From assembly GCF_013366375.1 (NCBI RefSeq), contig NZ_JABWMJ010000007.1, positions 1 through 64,000 of the forward strand: DNA of 64,000 nt, written 5' to 3'. Of the stretch, positions 14,533 to 29,922 are shown piece after piece. A model generated the notes under the pieces. It saw only the letters and a program-made list of their open reading frames with translations. It did not search any database and was not told the origin of the DNA. This DNA comes from Rhizobacter koreensis (GTDB taxonomy: Bacteria; Pseudomonadota; Gammaproteobacteria; Burkholderiales; Burkholderiaceae_C). Both the position numbers and the translations under genes were made by a program. How positions within the stretch are numbered: position 1 is the stretch's first letter; each line of letters opens with the position of its first letter.

Positions 14533-15177
14533 TCAGGCTCGTGGAGCTGCCTTGCGGCGCCGCGTCACCGCGCCGGCCACCCCGACCGCGGCCAGCATCA
14601 GCGCGAGCGTGGTCGGCTCCGGAACCTGCGCGATCAGCAGGTCGTTGACCGCGACGAACGAGCCACGGTCGGCGATGCTGACGGTCAGCGACACCAGCGA
14701 CGCGTTCGAGGTGAAGCCTCGGAACGACGACGCGGTGGCATTGAGGATCGTCTCGACGGCCGTCGCGCCCAGCGCATCAAGCACGCTGATCGTGATGTTC
14801 TGGCCCGCGAGGAACATGCCGTCCACGTCGGCACCGAAGAAGTTGCCGCCGATCGCCTTGACGCGGTCGTTGAAGCCGCTGAACGTGATCGAGGCGCCGG
14901 AGAAGTTGGTCGACAGCCAGGTGTCGGCCCCGCTCCCGGCGCTGTAGAAGCCGCCTTCACTGGTGGCCGAGAAGCTGTACATGCCCGCATTCACGGTGTA
15001 GGGCGACGCGGTGAAGCCGATCGGCAGGCCGTTGAACGACTGGCTCGCGGGTGCGAACTGATTCTGGTTGAACGCTGCAGTGGAGCTGGAGACGACGATC
15101 GCCGCGCTCGCGGCGCTGGAGAGGGCCACCAGCGCTGCGGCAGCAGCGACCTTGAGGACGGATGTGTTGAATGACAT
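14533..15177 (-). CDS. PEP-CTERM sorting-signal protein (214 aa)
   Basis: An exported protein with a Sec signal (residues 1-25, ending SSAASA) and a C-terminal sorting signal: VPEPTTLALMLAAVGVAGAVTRRRKAAPRA (VPEP near residue 185, a hydrophobic helix, then RRR). Such tails are recognised by exosortase (EpsH/XrtA), removed, and the protein is released or joined to exopolysaccharide; no exosortase is in this window. The body is a Ser/Gly/Asn-rich beta-type domain with no catalytic motif. AAGGAAAA precedes the ATG at 15177 and supports this start. Function unknown, possibly biofilm or floc matrix. Confidence 0.85.
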   Translation of the reverse strand: MSFNTSVLKVAAAAALVALSSAASAAIVVSSSTAAFNQNQFAPASQSFNGLPIGFTASPYTVNAGMYSFSATSEGGFYSAGSGADTWLSTNFSGASITFSGFNDRVKAIGGNFFGADVDGMFLAGQNITISVLDALGATAVETILNATASSFRGFTSNASLVSLTVSIADRGSFVAVNDLLIAQVPEPTTLALMLAAVGVAGAVTRRRKAAPRA

Positions 15178-15294: not shown

Positions 15295-16566
15295 TCAGTT
15301 GAAGAGCGACAGATCGATCGCGTTGCCCATGACCTCGTAGCCCGCGTTGTTGGGGTGCAACTGGTCGCCGCTCTGCAGGTCGTTGCGCATCATCCGCGGG
15401 TTGGCCGGGTCGCGGATCACGGCGTCGAAGTCGACGTAGCCATCGGTTTCGCGAGTGGTGCGGATCCAGTTGTTGATGAGGATCCGCCTCGCCTCGACGA
15501 CGTCGGTGGCGCGCCCGAATGGCGTGATGGTGGCGATGAAGATCTTCATCTGCTGTGCGCGGGCGCGGATCGCGACCTGACGCAGCGCCGAGATGATGTC
15601 TTCACCCGAGGTGCCGCCGTTCGCGTCGTTGATGCCGAGCAGCACGATGACGTACTTGGCACCGGTTCGCGCGATCACGTCGGCGTCGAAACGCGCGAGT
15701 GCGCTCGGGTTGGTCGAACCCGCGCCGACCGACACGCGGTTGCCGCTGATGCCGACGTTCGCGATGCCGAGGCGGTTGGCCGGCAGCAGGCGTCGCGCGA
15801 GCACGTCGGGCCAGCGGCCGTTCGAGTTCGTGACCATGCCGAAGCCTTCGGTGATCGAGTCGCCGAGCGCGACGATGGCGCCGCGGTTGCCCGGTGCGAC
15901 CACGTCGATCGAGGCCAGGAACTGCCAGATCGTGCGCGTGCCCGCTTGCGGGAACGCCGTCGAGCCGACGAAGTTGCCCTCCTGCGAGAGATAGTTGGTC
16001 TGGCGCGCGCCGCTGAACACCGACAGCACGTTGCCCGTCGCCGAGGTGTCACCCGGGATGTACAGGTCGACCGCCATGTCGACCAGGTCGGGCACCGTGA
16101 GGTCGACCCAGTCGCTCAGCATCTCGGAGAACGGCGGGATGACGATGCTCGAGCTGCCGCTGAACGTGAGCGGGCGGCTGGTCGAACCATCGATGCCGTT
16201 GTCGGTGGTGCGCAGCGCGACCTGCGCGCCACCAATCGTGAGCGGCTGCGGATTCCAGCGGTTCGTCAGTCGCACCCGCACCCGCGTCCCGCCGATGCTG
16301 ATGTGCGCGATCTGGCGCAGCGTCTGGTTGTTGACGCGGTTGCCGGTGGCCGGGTTCGCCGACACGATCGGCGCGCTCCAGGTGGCGACGGTGTCGACCT
16401 CGCTGCCATCCCGCAGCTGAGCCGCAGCGCCCATCGGCAACGCGATTGCCAGCGCTGCGACGCACGCGGTCGCGCCCTGCACGAGCCGGCGCCGCAACAC
16501 GTCGAAGCCGAACAGGCCCCACGTCTGGCCGGGCTGCCCGGAACCTTTGCTTCCAGTGAATTTCAT
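15295..16566 (-). CDS. secreted SGNH/GDSL hydrolase, XynE-like, copy 1 (423 aa)
   Basis: A Sec signal (hydrophobic 31-49, ending GAAAQ) exports it. An N-terminal beta-rich domain (about 50-225) precedes the SGNH domain: block I ALGDSITEG (nucleophile Ser237), block II GISGNRV, block III LLGIND (311-314), block V DQLHP (Asp401, His404). The block pattern matches the XynE-like esterase group, which deacetylates or cleaves esters of polysaccharides. Clearly closer to the third hydrolase of the cluster (both have GNFVGSTAFPQA-TRTIW) than to its neighbour. It is last of the four-gene cluster; substrate unknown. Confidence 0.88.
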   Translation of the reverse strand: MKFTGSKGSGQPGQTWGLFGFDVLRRRLVQGATACVAALAIALPMGAAAQLRDGSEVDTVATWSAPIVSANPATGNRVNNQTLRQIAHISIGGTRVRVRLTNRWNPQPLTIGGAQVALRTTDNGIDGSTSRPLTFSGSSSIVIPPFSEMLSDWVDLTVPDLVDMAVDLYIPGDTSATGNVLSVFSGARQTNYLSQEGNFVGSTAFPQAGTRTIWQFLASIDVVAPGNRGAIVALGDSITEGFGMVTNSNGRWPDVLARRLLPANRLGIANVGISGNRVSVGAGSTNPSALARFDADVIARTGAKYVIVLLGINDANGGTSGEDIISALRQVAIRARAQQMKIFIATITPFGRATDVVEARRILINNWIRTTRETDGYVDFDAVIRDPANPRMMRNDLQSGDQLHPNNAGYEVMGNAIDLSLFN

Positions 16567-16651
16567 TCGAGTCTCCTAATCGGGTGTGGATCGCGGCGGG
16601 TGACCTGGTCACTCATCGGCCGGCGATCGCCGTGATTCGATCGATCGAGGT

Positions 16652-17926
16652 TCAGAACAGACGCGGGCGCGGCCGGATCAGCTGCGCGAGGTCGACCGCG
16701 TTGGCCATCGCCTGGTAGCCCAGGCTGTTCGGGTGCAGCGTGTCGCCGCTGTCGAACTCGGCGCGCATCACGCGCGGGTTGGCAGGGTCGCGGGTGGCCA
16801 GATCGAAGTCGATCACCGCGTCGTACATGCCGCTGTTGCGGATCCAGTCGTTGACGACGACGCGCTGCGCCTCGCGGGCTTCGGGCGCCGCGCCGTACGG
16901 CGTGAGCGTCGCGCCGAGGATGCGCTTGCGCTTGGCGTGCGCGCGCGTGATCAGCTGACGGTGCCCCTCGATGATCCGGTCGGCGGTCGCGCCGCCGCTG
17001 ATGTCGTTGATGCCCTCGAGCACGATGATCGTGTAGGCGCCGGTCTGCGACAGCACGTCGCGATCGAAGCGCGCGAGCGCCGGATCGCCGGTGCCGCCGG
17101 TGAGCACGCGGTTGCCGCCGATGCCGAGGTTGACGACGCCCATCGGCGCGCTCGCCGTCGCCGCGAGCAGGCGACGTGCGAGGTAGTCGGGGTAGCGCGT
17201 GTTGGTGTTGGGCGTCGACTGGCTGCCGTCGGTGATCGAGTCGCCGAAGCACACCACCGAACCGGGCGAGCGTGCGTTGGACACGTCGACGCCGGTCAGG
17301 AAGTACCACGCCGTGCGCGACGTGGTGGCCGTGAACGACCCCGCGCCGAGTTGGTTGCCCTCGCCGAGGTACGACAGCACCTGCGTGGCCGGGCGCGCGT
17401 TGTGCAGCGTCACCGGCGAGGTGCCCGACGAGGTGTTGGACGCGATGTAGACGTCGATCGTGAGGTCGCCCTCGTTCGGCACGTTCCACGAGATCCAGTC
17501 GCTGTAGAGCTCGCCGAACGCCGGGATGTTGAACGTCGGCCGTCCATTGAACAGCAGCTGGCGCGCCGAGCCGGCGGCGATCTGGTCGGCACTGCCGGTG
17601 AGCGCGACGGAAGCACCGCTGATGAGAAGCGGCGTCGTTCCGTAGCGGTTCGACAGCTTCACGCGCAGCGAGTCGCCGCCGACGCTCAGGTGCACCTGCT
17701 GGCGAATGGTCTGGTTGTTGATCTGGTTCGCGGCAGCGGGCGCCGCCGAGACCGGGGCCGTCGACCAGCTTGCCGACGAGTTGAGGTCCTGGCGCGAGAT
17801 CGCGGCCGCTTCGTTCGACCAGCCGAGACCCGCGGCCACCGCCGGCACGCCGACGACGAACGCGCGGCGATCCAGCTTGATGCCGGCACGGTCCGTCGGC
17901 TGGGTGGGCAAGACTTTCGATTTCAT
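16652..17926 (-). CDS. secreted SGNH/GDSL hydrolase, XynE-like, copy 2, Tat type (424 aa)
   Basis: The N-terminus KLDRRAFVVGVPAVAAGLG (RR at 20-21) is a twin-arginine signal, unlike copies 1 and 3. The mature part starts near ISRQDLNSSASW. It has the same two-part build: a beta domain, then FGDSITDG (block I), GIGGNRV (block II), LEGIND (block III) and DTLHPNSLGY (block V). Very similar to copy 4 over its full length (ISRQDLN-SASW, NLGIGGNRVL, IRPRPRLF-like end). Tat export suggests folding before export. It lies between copies 1 and 3 in the same direction. Confidence 0.88.
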   Translation of the reverse strand: MKSKVLPTQPTDRAGIKLDRRAFVVGVPAVAAGLGWSNEAAAISRQDLNSSASWSTAPVSAAPAAANQINNQTIRQQVHLSVGGDSLRVKLSNRYGTTPLLISGASVALTGSADQIAAGSARQLLFNGRPTFNIPAFGELYSDWISWNVPNEGDLTIDVYIASNTSSGTSPVTLHNARPATQVLSYLGEGNQLGAGSFTATTSRTAWYFLTGVDVSNARSPGSVVCFGDSITDGSQSTPNTNTRYPDYLARRLLAATASAPMGVVNLGIGGNRVLTGGTGDPALARFDRDVLSQTGAYTIIVLEGINDISGGATADRIIEGHRQLITRAHAKRKRILGATLTPYGAAPEAREAQRVVVNDWIRNSGMYDAVIDFDLATRDPANPRVMRAEFDSGDTLHPNSLGYQAMANAVDLAQLIRPRPRLF

Positions 17927-18105
17927 CGTGCGTTCTCCTCGTGGCAGTGAGCGGGCATCGAGTCACGGAATTTCCGTCTCATCGGTTGTCTCCTTGGTGT
18001 TGTGGTGGCACGAAAACGGCCCGCCTCGACGGGCGGGCCCAAAGGGAAGTCACTCGCTCGGTGTCGCCGTCCTTCGTCGTGGTGCGCGCGCCTCGGATGC
18101 GCGGG

Positions 18106-19374
18106 TCACTTGAAGAGGTCGAGCGGAATGGCGTTGCCCATCACGGCATAGCCCGCGTCGTTCGGATGCAGCTGGTCGCCGATCTGCAACGAGGCGATCA
18201 TCAGTCGGGGGTTCGCGGGGTCACGGATCACCGCGTCGAAGTCGATGAAGCCATCGTGCTCGCGGGTGGTCCGGATCCAGCTGTTGACCGTCTGCCGGCG
18301 CGACTCGACCGAGTCGGATCCCCGCCCGTTCGGCGTGATGGTGCCGACGTAGATCTTCAGCTGTTGCAGGCGAGCCCGCGCCACGACCTGCTGCAGAGAC
18401 GCGATCACGTCCTCGGCGGACGTTCCGCCGTTGATGTCGTTGATGCCCAGGAGAAGGATCACGTGCGTCGCGCCGGTCTGCGCGATCACATCGGCGTCCA
18501 TCCGCGCGAGCGCGCTCGGGTTGGTCGCGCCGCCACCGAAGGCGACCCGGTTGCCGCCGATGCCGACGTCGGCCACTCCGAGTCGCATCGTGGGCAGGAG
18601 GCGCCGCGCGAGCACGTCGGGCCAGCGCGAGTTGGTGTTGGCACTCGATCCGAAGCCTTCGGTGATCGAGTCGCCGAACGCCACGATGGCACCGCGTCGC
18701 CCCGGCGCGTCGACGTCGATCGCGGCAAGGAAGTTCCAGATCGTGCGCGTCGAGGCTTGGGGGAACGCCGTCGAGCCGACGAAGTTGCCGGTCTGCGAAA
18801 CGTAGTTGGTCTGCTGTGCCGTCGTGCGCACCGTGAGCACCGTGCCGGTGGCCGAGGTATCACCCGGCAGGTACAGGTCGACCGCGACGTCGCCGAGGTC
18901 GGGCACGTCGAGCGTGACCCAGTCGCTGACCATCTCGGCGAACGGCGGGATCGTGACCGACGCGCTGCCGGCGAACGCGAGCGGCCGGCTGCTCGCCGGG
19001 TCGATGCCGTTGCCGGTGGTGCGCAGCGCGATCTGCGCAGCGCCGACCTCGAGCGGCAGCGGGTTCCAGCGGTTCGACAGCTTGATGCGCACCCGCGAGC
19101 CGCCGATGCTCAGGTGCGCGATCTCGCGCAAGGTCTGGTTGTTGACGCGATTTCCGGCCGACGGGTTGGCCGCGAACATCGGAACGCCCCAGCTGACGAC
19201 GGCGTTCGGATCGCCGATCGGCGCCTGCGCGTGGCCGAGGGTGGGCAGCGCCACGAGCGACGCTCCCGCGAGCAGTACGAAGGCCTGCATCAGACCGCGC
19301 CGCGCGCCGTCGAGACGACGGCGCCCCTGCCCGGCGCAGGTCCGCATCGCTGCCTTCAATGCCGTGAAGTTCAT
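18106..19374 (-). CDS. secreted SGNH/GDSL hydrolase, XynE-like, copy 3 (422 aa)
   Basis: The start at 19374 (MNFTALKAAM) precedes a Sec-type hydrophobic segment (about 28-49, ending LGHAQ); the frame stays open to 20064 only as a shadow of the next gene. Domains and motifs as in copy 1: AFGDSITEG, GIGGNRV, LLGIND, DQLHPNDAGY. It shares with copy 1 the stretches AGNRVNNQTLREIAHLSIGGSRVRIKLSNRWNPLPL and RTIWNFLAAIDV in near-identical form, so these two are paralogues from a tandem duplication. Confidence 0.88.
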   Translation of the reverse strand: MNFTALKAAMRTCAGQGRRRLDGARRGLMQAFVLLAGASLVALPTLGHAQAPIGDPNAVVSWGVPMFAANPSAGNRVNNQTLREIAHLSIGGSRVRIKLSNRWNPLPLEVGAAQIALRTTGNGIDPASSRPLAFAGSASVTIPPFAEMVSDWVTLDVPDLGDVAVDLYLPGDTSATGTVLTVRTTAQQTNYVSQTGNFVGSTAFPQASTRTIWNFLAAIDVDAPGRRGAIVAFGDSITEGFGSSANTNSRWPDVLARRLLPTMRLGVADVGIGGNRVAFGGGATNPSALARMDADVIAQTGATHVILLLGINDINGGTSAEDVIASLQQVVARARLQQLKIYVGTITPNGRGSDSVESRRQTVNSWIRTTREHDGFIDFDAVIRDPANPRLMIASLQIGDQLHPNDAGYAVMGNAIPLDLFK

Positions 19375-19460
19375 GAATGTCTCCTGTCTTCGTGAGCCGC
19401 CGGCGCACAGCGCTGCGGCGGCCCGATCTGGTTCTTGTAGGGGGTACGACGGGCCGCGCG

Positions 19461-20750
19461 TCAGAGCAGGCGCGGTCGCGGTCCGGCAAACAGGCTCAGC
19501 GGAACGGCATTGGCCATCGCGGCGTAGCCGGCGCTGTTGGGGTGCAGCGTGTCGCCGCTGTCGTACATCGCGAGCATGACGCGCGGGTTTGCCGGATCGC
19601 GCACCGCGGCGTCGAAGTCGATGACCGCGTCGTACTCGCCGCTGCTGCGGATCCACGCGTTGACCGCCTGACGTTCGGCCTCGCGCGCTTCCGGCGCGTT
19701 GCCGTACGGCGTGAGTGTCGCGCCGTAGATCTTCTTGCCCTTCGAGTGCGCGCGGCGGATCAGCTGCCGATGGCCGTCGATGATCCGCGGCGCCGTGGCG
19801 CCGCCGCTGATATCGTTGATGCCTTCGAGGACGACGATGTTGTAGACGCCGGTCTGCGCGAGCACGTCCCGATCGAAGCGCGCCAGTGCGCTGTCGCCGG
19901 TGCCGGTGGCGAGCACGCGGTTGCCGCCGATGCCGAGGTTGACGACACCCATCGGTGCCGACGGGCTCGCGGCCAGCAGCCGTTGCGCGAGGTAGTCGGG
20001 GTAGCGCGCGTTGGCGCCGATCGTCGACCAGCTGCCGTCGGTGATCGAATCGCCGAAGCAGCACACCGAGCCCGGCGAGCGGCTGTTCGAGACGTCGACA
20101 CCCGTGAGGAAGTACCAGGCCGTGCGGCTCGCGACGGTGGGGAACGTCGGCGTGCCCGCCACGTTGCCGTTGGCCAGGTACGAGAGCACCTGCCCTGCCG
20201 GGCGCGCGTTGTGCAGCGTCAGCGGCGACGTGCCCGACGACGTGTTCGACGCGATGTAGACGTCGATCACCAGATCGCTCTGGCTGGGCACGTTCCAGCC
20301 GATCCAGTCGCTGTACAGCTCGCCGAAGGCGGGAATGGTGAAGAAGGTCCGACCATTGAACGTGAGGGTGCGGGCCGACCCGGCCTGCGCGTTCTCGTTG
20401 CCGGCGGAGACGCCGATCGTCGCCGCGCTGACGACCAGCGTGCTCGTGCCGTAGCGGTTGGACAGCTTGACCCGAAGCGAGTCGCCGCCGACGCTCAGGT
20501 GGACGACCTGGCGGATGGTCTGGTTGTTGATCTGGTTGTCGGCGGCTGGAGCCGCCGACACCGGTGCGGCGGCCCAGCTCGCACTGGCGTTGAGATCCTG
20601 CCGCGAGATCGCGAACGCCGACGGCGCCAGCGCAAGACCCGCCGCGGCGGCCGGCACGCCGACCATGAACGAGCGTCGGCCCAGCCTTCCGCCGGAGCCT
20701 GCGCTCGGGTCGCCCGCCTCCGGTCGCGTCGGAACGGATTCCAGCTTCAT
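19461..20750 (-). CDS. secreted SGNH/GDSL hydrolase, XynE-like, copy 4, Tat type (429 aa)
   Basis: The start is placed at ATG 20750 (MKLESVPTRPEAG), with an AGGAGA site just upstream; the frame is open to 20828. Twin-arginine signal GRLGRRSFMVGVPAAAAGLALAPSAFA (RR at 25-26). SGNH blocks: FGDSITDG, GIGGNRV, LEGIND, DTLHPNSAGY. The nucleophile region has a CC pair (SVCCFGDSITDG). It is paired with copy 2. Being nearest to the transporter gene, it may be the first gene of the hydrolase transcript. Confidence 0.88.
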   Translation of the reverse strand: MKLESVPTRPEAGDPSAGSGGRLGRRSFMVGVPAAAAGLALAPSAFAISRQDLNASASWAAAPVSAAPAADNQINNQTIRQVVHLSVGGDSLRVKLSNRYGTSTLVVSAATIGVSAGNENAQAGSARTLTFNGRTFFTIPAFGELYSDWIGWNVPSQSDLVIDVYIASNTSSGTSPLTLHNARPAGQVLSYLANGNVAGTPTFPTVASRTAWYFLTGVDVSNSRSPGSVCCFGDSITDGSWSTIGANARYPDYLAQRLLAASPSAPMGVVNLGIGGNRVLATGTGDSALARFDRDVLAQTGVYNIVVLEGINDISGGATAPRIIDGHRQLIRRAHSKGKKIYGATLTPYGNAPEAREAERQAVNAWIRSSGEYDAVIDFDAAVRDPANPRVMLAMYDSGDTLHPNSAGYAAMANAVPLSLFAGPRPRLL

Positions 20751-20865: not shown

Positions 20866-22563
20866 TCAGTCGTTCGCGTAGATGTCGACGTCCTTGGTCT
20901 CGCGGATGAAGAGCGTGCCGATGATGAAGGTCATCACCGCGATCACGATCGGGTACCACAGGCCGTTGTACATGTTGCCCGTGGAGGCGACGATCGCGAA
21001 CGTCGTCGTCGGCAGGAGCCCGCCGAACCAGCCGTTGCCCACGTGGTACGGCAGGCTCATCGACGTGTAGCGGATGCGCGTGGGGAAGAGCTCCACCAGC
21101 GCCGCGGCGATCGGGCCATAGACCATCGTCACGTAGATGACGAGGATCCACAGGATCGCGACGATCTTCCACCACTGCCCGCCCATGAACTCGATCGGCT
21201 TGGCCTTGGCCGGGTAGCCCGCGGCGCTGAGCGCGCTGCCGATCTCCTTCTTGAACGCGGCGATCTTGGCGGTGCTGTCGGCGTCGAACTTCTGGTTGAC
21301 GACGTTGGCCGCCGGCGGCGTGATGGTGGTGTTGCCGATCGTGACGGTCGCGGGCGTGCCGGCCGGCGCGTCGGCGTTGTCGTAGCTGACCGAGCTTTGC
21401 GCGAGGAAGCGCTTGGCGATGTCGCACGAGGTGCGGAAGTCGATCTCGCGCGCGATCGGGCTGCCCTGGAACGAGCACTGGCTCGGGTCGGCGTGGACGA
21501 CGACCTTGTTGTTGGCCTGCGCGGCGGCAAGCTCGGGGTTGGCCGCCTGCGTGAGCGCGCCGAACAGCGGGAAGTAGGTCAGCGCCGCAATCAGGCAGCC
21601 GGCCATGATGATGGGCTTTCTGCCGATGCGGTCGGACAAGGCGCCGAACACGATGAAGAACGGCGTGCCGAGCAGGAGCGCCGCGCCGATCATGAGCTGC
21701 GCGGTGGTGGCCTCGACCTTGAGCTGCGCGGTGAGGAAAAAGAGCGCGTAGAACTGGCCCGTGTACCAGACGACGCCCTGGCCGGCGGTGAGGCCCAGCA
21801 GGGCCAGCAGCACGATCTTGCCGTTCTTCCAGTTGGCGAACGACTCCGACAGCGGCGCCTTCGAGGTCTTGCCCTCGGACTTCATCTTGGCGAACGCCGG
21901 CGACTCGTTGAGCTTGAGCCGGATCCACACCGAGATGCCCAGCAGCACGATGGAGATCAGGAACGGGATGCGCCAGCCCCAGGCGTTGAAGGCCTCGTCG
22001 CCGACCATGGCCTTGACGGCGATGATGACGATGAGCGAGAGGAACAGGCCCATCGTCGCGGTGGTCTGGATCCACGAGGTGTACGCGCCGCGCTTGCCGT
22101 GCGGGGCGTGCTCGGCCACGTAGGTCGCCGCACCGCCGTACTCACCGCCGAGCGCCAGGCCCTGCACCAGGCGCAGCGCCACGAGGATGATCGGCGCGGC
22201 CGCGCCGATGGCGGCGTAGTTGGGCAGGATGCCGACGATGAAGGTCGACAGGCCCATCAAGAGGATGGTGACGAGGAAGGTGTACTTGCGGCCGATCATG
22301 TCGCCCAGGCGCCCGAACACGATGGCCCCGAACGGTCGCACCAGAAAGCCCGCCGCGAACGCCATCAGCGAGGCGATGAACGCGGCCGTGGGATCGAGCG
22401 CGGCGAAGAACTGCCGGCCGATGATCGCCGCCAGCGACCCGTACAGGTAGAAGTCGTACCACTCGAACACGGTCCCCAGACTCGACGCGAAGATGACCTT
22501 CTTCTCTTCGCTGGTCATGGGTCGTGGGACCTGTTGGTTGGCGGGAATCGCGGCTGCGACCAT
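20866..22563 (-). CDS. MHS-family MFS transporter with a large periplasmic insertion (565 aa)
   Basis: Metabolite:H+ symporter of the ShiA/KgtP/ProP group: GTVFEWYDFYLYGSLA in helix 1, RPFGAIVFGRLGDMIGRK (loop 2-3), LRLVQGLALGGEYGGAATYVAEHAP (helix 4-5) and GALSDRIGRKPIIMAG (loop 8-9) are diagnostic. Usual length is 420-450 residues; here about 130 extra residues (roughly 350-480, with SQCSFQGSPIAREIDFRTSCD and ITPPAANVV) are inserted between two late helices, probably outside the membrane, with two Cys that may pair. Expected substrates are organic acids or similar small anions. It is directly upstream of the four secreted hydrolases, in the same direction. Confidence 0.85.
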   Translation of the reverse strand: MVAAAIPANQQVPRPMTSEEKKVIFASSLGTVFEWYDFYLYGSLAAIIGRQFFAALDPTAAFIASLMAFAAGFLVRPFGAIVFGRLGDMIGRKYTFLVTILLMGLSTFIVGILPNYAAIGAAAPIILVALRLVQGLALGGEYGGAATYVAEHAPHGKRGAYTSWIQTTATMGLFLSLIVIIAVKAMVGDEAFNAWGWRIPFLISIVLLGISVWIRLKLNESPAFAKMKSEGKTSKAPLSESFANWKNGKIVLLALLGLTAGQGVVWYTGQFYALFFLTAQLKVEATTAQLMIGAALLLGTPFFIVFGALSDRIGRKPIIMAGCLIAALTYFPLFGALTQAANPELAAAQANNKVVVHADPSQCSFQGSPIAREIDFRTSCDIAKRFLAQSSVSYDNADAPAGTPATVTIGNTTITPPAANVVNQKFDADSTAKIAAFKKEIGSALSAAGYPAKAKPIEFMGGQWWKIVAILWILVIYVTMVYGPIAAALVELFPTRIRYTSMSLPYHVGNGWFGGLLPTTTFAIVASTGNMYNGLWYPIVIAVMTFIIGTLFIRETKDVDIYAND

Positions 22564-22987
22564 CGGCGGGCTCCTACGGTGGAAGTGGAATGGCGTGAGT
22601 GCCGGGGGACGCGCTCACCCCCGGGATGGCGCCGAGAATTGCATACGCCGGTCGCTTCCTGAATCCGGACTTAACGCTCCGGCAACGTTCTTGTAAAAAG
22701 GCCCACTCGACGCGCGCCGGCTTTGACAGCGATTGACATTGCAGTGCAGCAAGTCACCATCACGCCCGACACGCCACCGGTTGAACACCGCAGGGCTGGG
22801 GCCCGAAACAGCCGACGCAGCGGTCGTGGCCGCAGTACGCGATGTCCTGCAGCCGCATCGGCTCGCGAGAGCCGACAACCGGGGCATACACGGTTCGACC
22901 GATCGCACGCGTTCTTGTAAAAGCCGACACTCGCGAATCGATCCTTTGACAGGATTGACATTGCGCCGCAACACGAAGGACGCCTGC
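22564..22987. promoter_or_regulatory. divergent control region with two long direct repeats, 424 bp
   Basis: It separates the transporter gene (left) and the ScfR-like regulator gene (right). Two copies of a 55-60 bp sequence lie 224 bp apart in the same direction: CGTTCTTGTAAAA at 22686-22698 and 22910-22922, each followed about 25 bp later by TTTGACAG-GATTGACATTGC (22722-22742 and 22945-22964). The second copy ends about 23 nt before the regulator start. They are candidate binding sites for the regulator or repeated promoters. Confidence 0.6.
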
Positions 22988-24619
22988 TTGGCTCGCACCC
23001 TGATCGGCTCACGCATCCGCGACCGTCGCAAGGCGCTCGGCACGACCCAGCTCGCACTGGCGCAGCAGGTCGGCATCTCGCCGTCGTACCTGAACCTGAT
23101 CGAGAGCAACCGGCGCAACATCGGCGGCACGCTGCTGCGCCGCATCGCCGACGAACTTGGCCTCGGGGTCGACGACTTCGACGGCGCCGTCGAGCGGCGG
23201 CTCGTCGACGAGTTGGCCGAGGTCGCGGCGGCGCTCCAGGGCGGCCCGGCTCGCCCGGAGCCCGAGAGCTCCGCGCGCCTGGCAGCCGAGCATCCGCTCT
23301 GGGCGCAGACGCTGGTGTCGCTGCACCGCGCCTGCCTCGACCGCGACCAGACCATCGCGAGCCTCTCGGACCGGCTCAATCAGGACCCGTTCCTCGGCGA
23401 GGCGGTCCACCAGATGCTCAGCAAGGTGACCGCGATCCGCTCGGCCTGCGAGATCCTCGAAGGCGACGACGCACTGCAGCCCGGCCAGCGCGAGCGGTTC
23501 CTCTCGATCGTCAGCCAGGACAGCCGGCGCCTCGCGGACGTGGCGAGCTCGCTCGCCGCGTTCTTCGACAAGGCGCGCATGCGCTCGCGCTCGATCACGC
23601 CGGTCGAGGAGGTCGACGACCTGATCGGCGAGAGCGAGAACCACTTTCCCTCGCTCGAGGACGCCGCCGAACGGGTGCGCGCCTCGTGGCCCGCGGGCAG
23701 CGACGACGTCGAGCACGCGCTCACCGCCTACCTGCTGCGCGCGCACGGCGTGCACGTGCGACGGGTGCCGGCGAGCGTCGGCGCCGGCACGAGCGCGACG
23801 CAGCGAGTCGCTCCGCACTTCGACCCCGATGCCCACACGCTCGAGCTGCCCGAGCTCGCCGCCGGGCCGACACGCCGCTTCGCGCTCGCCCGCCTCGCGG
23901 CCAGCCTCGCCTGCTTCGCCGAGGTCGCGCAGATCGTCGAGACCTCCGATCTGCTGCATGCGCCGGCGGCTCGCCGCAAGGCGCGCGCCGCGCTGATCGC
24001 CTACGTCGCCGGCGCCATCCTGATGCCGTACGAGGCGTTCCGCGCCGAGGCCGTCGCCAGCCGCTACGACGTCGGTCACCTGTGCCGGCGCTTTCGCGTC
24101 AGCTTGGAGCAGGCGGCGCACCGCCTCACCACCCTGCGTCGCGCCGGCGCCGAAGGCGTGCGCTTCGGTTTCATCCGCGCCGACGCATCGGGGCACCTCA
24201 GCAAGCGCCTCGCCCTGCCGGACCTCGCGATGCCGCGCTACAGCTTCGCGTGCCCGCTCTGGGCGCTGCACGAGGCGTTCCAGACGCCCGGTCAGCTCAA
24301 GCGTCAGCTGGTCGAGTTCCCCAACGGCACGCGCTATGTCTTCTTCGCCCAGACGGTCGAGAAGGCGCGCGAGTCGCCGCACGGGCCGCGCCGGCTGATG
24401 GCCCTCATGCTGGCGTGCAACGTGTTGCACGCGCCGGCCATTGCCTATGCCGATGGGCTCGATCTCTCGTCGGCGGCGCCGGCGGTGCCGGTGGGTCAGA
24501 CCTGCCGCATGTGCGTGCGGCGGGGCTGCGCGTGGCGCCAGGAGGCGCCGATCATCGAGGACGCGAGCGAGCCCGCGCACCGGGAAGATTCCGATTACGG
24601 CGCGCTCCATCCGCTCTAG
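22988..24619 (+). CDS. XRE-family regulator of the ScfR (short-chain acyl sensing) type (543 aa)
   Basis: A TTG start (22988) gives LARTLIGSRIRDRRKALGTTQ, the usual beginning of this family; the longer frame lacks coding character. Residues about 8-60 are an XRE helix-turn-helix (TTQLALAQQVGISPSYLNLIESNRR). Residues about 130-195 (LSKVTAIRSACEILEG...FLSIVSQDSRRLADVAS) resemble a HisKA dimerisation helix pair, but with Lys in place of His. The middle matches the IrrE-like region without an HExxH, so it is not a protease. The C-terminus has the DUF2083-type Cys motif CRMCVRRGCAWRQEAP. Relatives (RamB, PrpR, MccR) sense short-chain acyl-CoA and control acetate or propionate use. Regulates probably its divergent neighbour. 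Confidence 0.8.
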   Translation: MARTLIGSRIRDRRKALGTTQLALAQQVGISPSYLNLIESNRRNIGGTLLRRIADELGLGVDDFDGAVERRLVDELAEVAAALQGGPARPEPESSARLAAEHPLWAQTLVSLHRACLDRDQTIASLSDRLNQDPFLGEAVHQMLSKVTAIRSACEILEGDDALQPGQRERFLSIVSQDSRRLADVASSLAAFFDKARMRSRSITPVEEVDDLIGESENHFPSLEDAAERVRASWPAGSDDVEHALTAYLLRAHGVHVRRVPASVGAGTSATQRVAPHFDPDAHTLELPELAAGPTRRFALARLAASLACFAEVAQIVETSDLLHAPAARRKARAALIAYVAGAILMPYEAFRAEAVASRYDVGHLCRRFRVSLEQAAHRLTTLRRAGAEGVRFGFIRADASGHLSKRLALPDLAMPRYSFACPLWALHEAFQTPGQLKRQLVEFPNGTRYVFFAQTVEKARESPHGPRRLMALMLACNVLHAPAIAYADGLDLSSAAPAVPVGQTCRMCVRRGCAWRQEAPIIEDASEPAHREDSDYGALHPL

Positions 24620-29551: not shown

Positions 29552-29922
29552 TGGTGGAGCTGGGGGGAATCGAACCCCCGTCCGAAAGCCTTTCTCAGGC
29601 AGGTCTACACGCTTAGCTGGCTGGTTTGGCTTTAAGGGTTCAGGTCGCGCAGCAGCACGCTACCGTCACCCCGAGTCACTTGATCTAGCCGGCTACCGAA
29701 TGACGCGGCAGCAAGCGATCCCATGTGTATGACCTCGCAGTCTTCCGGTTACCCGTCAGACCCAGCCCATGGGCCAACTGTTGCGAGGCTCACCGGTGTT
29801 AAGCGGCGAGAGCGTACGTTTGATCGTTCGCAGTTACTTTGTTTCCAGTGGATTTACGAGCGAACTGGTGCTCGGCGTGCACTGTCCCGAGTCCGAACCT
29901 TCGTCGAAACCAGGTCAGCCCC
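29552..29922 (-). ncRNA. ssrA: tmRNA (371 nt, one-piece)
   Basis: Minus strand: the 5' end GGGGCTGACCTGGTTTCGACG (first bases at 29922) pairs with CAGCTCC near the 3' CCA (29552-29554) to form the acceptor stem; the T-arm GGTTCGATTCCCCCC is intact. The tag reading frame at 29799-29831 is GCG-AAC-GAT-CAA-ACG-TAC-GCT..., encoding ANDQTYALAA and a TAA stop. It rescues stalled ribosomes and tags proteins for ClpXP with the -LAA end. The nearest gene on the same strand, gph, ends upstream at 29955. Confidence 0.95.

Follow-up and report, generated by a model that had tools for sequence, protein, structure and literature searches.

A lineage-specific tandem array of predicted-secreted SGNH esterases beside a transporter and an ScfR-type regulator in Rhizobacter koreensis

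Four intact open reading frames for SGNH hydrolases fill positions 15295-20750 of a 64,000-nt stretch of Rhizobacter koreensis DNA (contig NZ_JABWMJ010000007.1; hereafter the window), all on the minus strand. How did such an array arise, do its products leave the cytoplasm by one route or by two, and what could they serve? The genes are read in the order D4, C3, B2, A1, the digits being the copy numbers of a preliminary description of the locus, and each ATG is preceded by a purine-rich GGAG-type ribosome-binding site. The assembly from which the window comes has an estimated contamination of 7.18%. The array and the features within and directly downstream of it are the following.

19461-20750, minus strand: D4 (copy 4), predicted two-domain SGNH hydrolase, 429 aa, signal RRSFM
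18106-19374, minus strand: C3 (copy 3), predicted two-domain SGNH hydrolase, 422 aa, signal RRGLM
18018-18039, minus strand: terminator-like hairpin, eight G-C pairs followed by GTTTTC, between the two gene units
17923-17982, minus strand: putative 19-codon leader reading frame, read from the sequence, with AGGAG upstream and a stop that overlaps the B2 start as ATGA
16652-17926, minus strand: B2 (copy 2), predicted two-domain SGNH hydrolase, 424 aa, signal RRAFV
15295-16566, minus strand: A1 (copy 1), predicted two-domain SGNH hydrolase, 423 aa, signal RRRLV
14533-15177, minus strand: PEP-CTERM surface-protein gene, 117 nt downstream of A1 and on the same strand

The last of these genes has its own copy as the sole strong full-length match in six genomes of the genus; one weak near-full-length match occurs in genome G002 (E 2e-4), and the matches elsewhere are mainly C-terminal.

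All four proteins match Lipase_GDSL_2 (PF13472; 95.2-104.4 bits against a cut-off of 32.9, E 9e-27 to 1e-29), in agreement with the preliminary description of four tandem SGNH hydrolase genes. Lipase_GDSL also scores above its cut-off in every copy, and no NCBIfam family exceeds its own cut-off for any of the four. Over their full length, D4 and B2 share 313 of 424 residues (74%) and C3 and A1 share 277 of 422 (66%), versus 174-184 of 410-417 residues (42-45%) for the four cross pairs; copies 2 and 4, like copies 1 and 3, are thus close paralogues, as had been proposed.

For the phylogeny, relatives were gathered by searches of kin genomes at several ranks, with at most 30 loci taken per search. 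Two were removed because the profile match listed first for them covered little; this left 92 distinct reading frames, 91 of which passed the length filter into a main tree of 95 rows. The topology obtained is ((D4,B2),(C3,A1)), with support of 100/100 for each sister pair and 100/99 for all four copies together; the four-copy clade sits on a stem of 0.29, and its sister group is uncertain (L023, L024, L026; 85/20). A tree of 23 rows has the same topology, and when neighbouring copies were forced together in it (1 with 2, 3 with 4), the grouping that the preliminary description had named as contrary evidence, both pairs were rejected (p-AU 1.5e-112 for B2+A1 and 1.5e-5 for D4+C3). The spacers follow the same division, with 86 nt between D4 and C3 and 85 nt between B2 and A1, within the units, versus 179 nt between the units (C3-B2). 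All of this supports an origin of the array by duplication of a two-gene unit, the history first suggested for it. By the tree topology, a first duplication of an ancestor within this lineage was followed by divergence of the two copies and then by duplication of the pair.

Other traces of this history were sought within the array. The spacer sequences, compared as 10 pairs, show no detectable similarity that would back unit duplication (best p 0.037, uncorrected, for the region upstream of D4 against the C3-B2 spacer; best p 0.022 for the same two among six pairs after omission of the last 15 nt), and since these p-values are weak and uncorrected, spacer homology is not used as evidence. Dating by synonymous sites was abandoned: the share of identical codons is 0.62-0.70 in the six gene pairs versus 0.59-0.61 expected from codon usage, so close to saturation that the duplication steps cannot be dated and the equal values of the sister pairs say little. 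Gene conversion between neighbouring copies was rejected, as the sister pairs lead the cross pairs throughout the sliding codon identity, with no mosaic. The leader reading frame upstream of B2 might serve translational coupling, or might be a remnant of a duplicated 5' end.

The array has no match in the five other genomes of the genus (E 1e-3), three of which are less than 93% complete. Relatives are found in 12 of 60 kin genomes and 97 of 399 genomes of the family at E 1e-3, and, at E 1e-20, in 34 of 399 genomes of the order, 10 of 369 of the class and 31 of 398 of the phylum; these counts include the source genome and overlap between sets, and many of the E 1e-3 matches are weak. Among the matches listed, directly adjacent members occur in the source genome only; in one other genome (G810), two distant members lie about 3 kb from each other. 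As no more than four candidates per genome entered the scoring of the large searches, additional copies could escape. Matches also occur in 74 plasmid records, with a best identity below 60%; some records, such as H5, H10, H12 and H23, have several matching places, and the three plasmid regions inspected have no annotated tandem partner in their gene tables, which are incomplete. A back-translated pattern search of genome contigs returned one weak Verrucomicrobia locus only. The array represents a tandem expansion, specific to this lineage, within an already known kind of predicted-secreted SGNH esterase.

When the four-copy profile was compared with solved structures, 9kr0 (E 4e-90), 7tog (1e-88) and 7toj (1e-79) matched across both domains. 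From these alignments the array proteins are assigned as two-domain SGNH hydrolases, with a predicted N-terminal beta (CBM-like) domain followed by the SGNH domain. The catalytic residues Ser188, Asn265, Asp363 and His366 (7tog numbering; blocks I, III and V) are present in all four copies and conserved in 92, 92, 91 and 91 of the 92 relatives, respectively. At the Gly position of block II, B2, C3 and D4 have Gly and A1 has Ser, as do 49 of the 92 relatives. The serine motif reads GDSI in every copy, and its Asp is shared by 91 of the 92 relatives. A structure model computed from the four sequences reached a mean pLDDT of 52.2, a low confidence, and was set aside.

The enzymes of 7tog and 7toj are acetyl-xylan esterases of the FjoAcXE type. 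According to PMC9105624, the motif of this type is GNSI, and its ligand, MeGlcA-xylose, is contacted by Arg25, Asn26, Arg139 and Arg193; PMC12247016 places 7tog and 7toj in an unclassified carbohydrate-esterase family. Could the array encode true members of this type, acting on 2-O-methylglucuronoyl-3-O-acetyl xylose? These are the closest published structures with a function, and the genome has one GH10 xylanase match, so that xylan is a possible substrate. However, GNSI is found in none of the four copies, R25, N26 and R193 are missing from all of them, and the Arg equivalent to R139, present in A1 and in 43 of the 92 relatives, is replaced by Gln in B2, C3 and D4; moreover, no glycoside hydrolase occurs among the eight neighbouring window genes that were scanned. 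We therefore regard this specificity as very unlikely. Retention of the catalytic residues, together with GDSI and the missing ligand contacts, points to active-looking esterases of this fold with a specificity that is probably other or broader than that of FjoAcXE.

The preliminary description held that copies 1 and 3 carry Sec-type and copies 2 and 4 Tat-type signals, and that the sister enzymes thus keep two export routes. When the four copies are aligned, all have the twin arginine at one and the same position, and each signal listed above matches RR-x-[FILVM]-[FILVM]. In A1 and C3, 24 residues precede the arginine pair, and from estimated cleavage sites their signals are about 50 residues in length, which is long for plain Sec. 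The NCBIfam Tat model TIGR01409 (cut-off 16.7) favours D4 (15.0 bits) and A1 (11.5 bits), both below cut-off, and gives no match at all for B2 and C3; a Pfam search of the four N-termini gave no match. Three features agree with a division into two routes: Phe at +2 of the motif, more canonical for Tat, occurs only in B2 and D4; the signal cores of these two are less hydrophobic (best 17-residue Kyte-Doolittle mean 1.33 in B2 and 1.71 in D4, against 1.91 in A1 and 2.01 in C3); and over the first 60 aligned codons A1 and C3 have diverged further in DNA identity (0.51-0.54) than D4 and B2 (0.66-0.68). Nevertheless, the aligned arginines, the length of the A1 and C3 signals and a Tat model that picks D4 and A1 instead of D4 and B2 all speak against Sec export of A1 and C3 beside Tat export of B2 and D4, which we consider improbable. 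Differing cofactors had been offered as a reason for two routes; SGNH hydrolases, to our knowledge, require no metal or organic cofactor, which makes this reason a misfit, and use of Tat, if any, must reflect folding or kinetics.

Judged by their sequences, the four copies read as carrying a shared, variably degenerate Tat-like signal, and the Sec route remains conceivable, for C3 in particular. TatC has one match in the same genome. A crude core finder was applied to the 88 relatives whose upstream stretch was usable; it placed RR-x-hydrophobic beside the core in 17 of them and RR-x-F-hydrophobic in two, and eight of the ten best-scoring relatives belong to the 17. Our literature search found no paper that joins SGNH hydrolase, twin-arginine and tandem arrangement. 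Lip1 of Acidovorax, an SGNH protein described in the literature, is assigned there to a different SGNH subfamily. One relative of the array proteins lies on an Indioceanicola plasmid among type II secretion genes (L168, NZ_CP030128.1 218122-243171); onward secretion after either Sec or Tat would fit such a setting. The Sec/Tat idea would be of importance only if export experiments confirmed it.

On the other side of D4, the window contains a transporter gene and a divergent regulator gene, and a tmRNA gene lies beyond them. These features are the following.

20866-22563, minus strand: MFS transporter, metabolite:H+ symporter-like, 115 nt upstream of D4
22686-22751, plus strand: copy 1 of an element of about 63 nt, TTCTTGTAAAA ... 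CTTTGACAGCGATTGACATTGC, in the regulator/MFS spacer, candidate operator
22733-24619, plus strand: ScfR/RamB-like regulator with HTH, IrrE-like domain, PF09856 and C-x2-C-x4-C, divergent to the MFS gene
22910-22973, plus strand: copy 2 of the element, in the regulator/MFS spacer, candidate operator
29552-29922, minus strand: tmRNA gene, tag ANDQTYALAA, about 5 kb from the regulator

The best NCBIfam match of the MFS gene is TIGR00883 (362.3 bits, under the cut-off of 443.45). This gene is a second, non-syntenic copy: the segment 20860-22563 (1704 nt) is 99.1% identical to a gene elsewhere in the same genome (G000:C37:137568-139262; 8569-10272 in L159), and the flanks that recur in the genus's five other genomes are those of the latter. 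The two copies differ at 15 positions, 10 of them within the first 32 nt and five at third codon positions, and their identity stops 6 nt beyond the stop codon, the flanks being unrelated, a pattern suggestive of gene conversion or of a recent copying event bounded by the gene. The MFS gene is found in all five other genomes (in G002 the match covers residues 138-565 only), where it adjoins DNA resembling a malonyl-CoA synthase gene; this association gives a hint that the transporter may take up short-chain carboxylates.

The regulator matches the ScfRs family (PF09856) at E 1.5e-41 (142.3 bits against a gathering score of 24) and PrpR structures at E 1e-44, and it scores 289.8 bits with the RamB equivalog NF038139, below the cut-off of 700. 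Judging from where the HTH match begins, its true start is probably near 22988. In PMC6765138, C-x2-C-x4-C is given for iron-sulfur acyl-CoA regulators; PMC10370305 reports binding of CoA thioesters to a RamB of the ScfR family and describes ScfR sites as commonly consisting of two boxes that are nearly identical. The two element copies in the spacer stand 222-224 nt apart, and neither TTCTTGTAAAA nor TTGACATTGC occurs elsewhere in the 64 kb. The PrpR box given in PMC6765138, TTTGCAAA, is absent from the element and from the whole window.

How far do these genes belong together? The regulator has no match in the five other genomes of the genus at E 1e-30. Around 16 relatives of the array proteins, tblastn found no MFS homologue (E 1e-3), and blastp of crudely called genes in the relatives' neighbourhoods gave no regulator homologue as best hit; the gene calling failed to recover C3 of the window as well as the SGNH gene of each of L125, L134 and L138, so that the lack of regulator matches is weak evidence. 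The association therefore comes from this genome alone so far. tmRNA genes are a common integration site of islands. Between 14400 and 23100, a scan limited to sigma-70-like promoters found none, with 0.6 expected by chance from shuffles. Terminator-like sites in the same interval number seven versus 3.9 expected from shuffles, which makes the single hairpin at 18018-18039 weak evidence; transcription may be split there between the units.

These observations bear on a simpler possibility, an expansion for gene dosage, in which four near-redundant secreted esterases share one substrate and one route and have no connection with the adjoining regulator and transporter. The catalytic residues and the RR-x-hydrophobic motif kept in all four copies, the hairpin that parts the two units and the failure to see the MFS/regulator association in the 16 neighbourhoods would all be expected from it. 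On the other hand, the two types share just 42-45% identity and differ at position 139 (Arg in A1, Gln in B2, C3 and D4), which suggests diverged specificity, and neither regulator nor array was found in the five other genomes of the genus. We find such an expansion rather unlikely, and prefer a locus in which esterases, transporter and regulator act together.

For this preferred reading, we infer export, acyl specificity, co-transcription, transporter substrate and regulation as follows. An ancestral secreted SGNH esterase would have become a two-gene unit by duplication, its two members would have diverged, and the diverged unit would then have been copied in tandem, giving D4-C3 and B2-A1. 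Since the catalytic residues and the N-terminal beta domain are kept in all four copies, export and acyl removal outside the cell are most likely; the four enzymes would leave the cytoplasm, most likely by their long twin-arginine-like signals, and cleave short acyl groups, most likely acetyl, from an external polymer or glycoside. The upstream MFS transporter would take in the released acid or product, and short-chain acyl-CoA would be the signal to which the divergent ScfR-type regulator responds in switching the locus. We favour this explanation as a whole, on balance and with some reserve, and an accessory, acyl-responsive role in ester scavenging is the most likely function of the locus. 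The narrower proposal of a single accessory regulon for ester scavenging that senses acyl-CoA, made up of array, transporter and regulator, with the regulator acting at the duplicated element of about 63 nt, is put forward tentatively. If true, it would place secreted carbohydrate-esterase-like enzymes under ScfR control, an arrangement that does not appear in the available parts of PMC10370305 and PMC6765138, and, if the regulatory link holds, acyl release outside the cell would be tied to acyl-CoA sensing inside. A more useful hypothesis than two export routes comes from the short-acyl-type regulator and the transporter next to the array. In addition, the four genes amount to a clean experiment by nature on how esterases specialise: two types of paralogue occur in two copies each, and the substrate-contacting arginine (R139) is retained in A1 only.

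Compared with known systems, the regulator resembles the ScfR regulators RamB, PrpR/MccR and PccR in its PF09856, HTH and IrrE-like domains and in C-x2-C-x4-C, but unlike them its gene adjoins a transporter and esterases, and its score is below the RamB equivalog cut-off. The best profile match of the array in both domains is the SGNH/GDSL hydrolase 9kr0/9kqz, for which our literature search found no paper; GDSI is common to both. Among solved structures whose function is published, the closest to the array proteins are the FjoAcXE-like acetyl-xylan esterases PbeAcXE (7tog) and CspAcXE (7toj), and the array proteins share with this group the predicted CBM-like and SGNH layout, a match across both domains and the catalytic Ser, Asn, Asp and His. 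They differ from it in having GDSI for GNSI, in mostly lacking the residues that hold methyl-glucuronic acid, and in being encoded by four genes in tandem.
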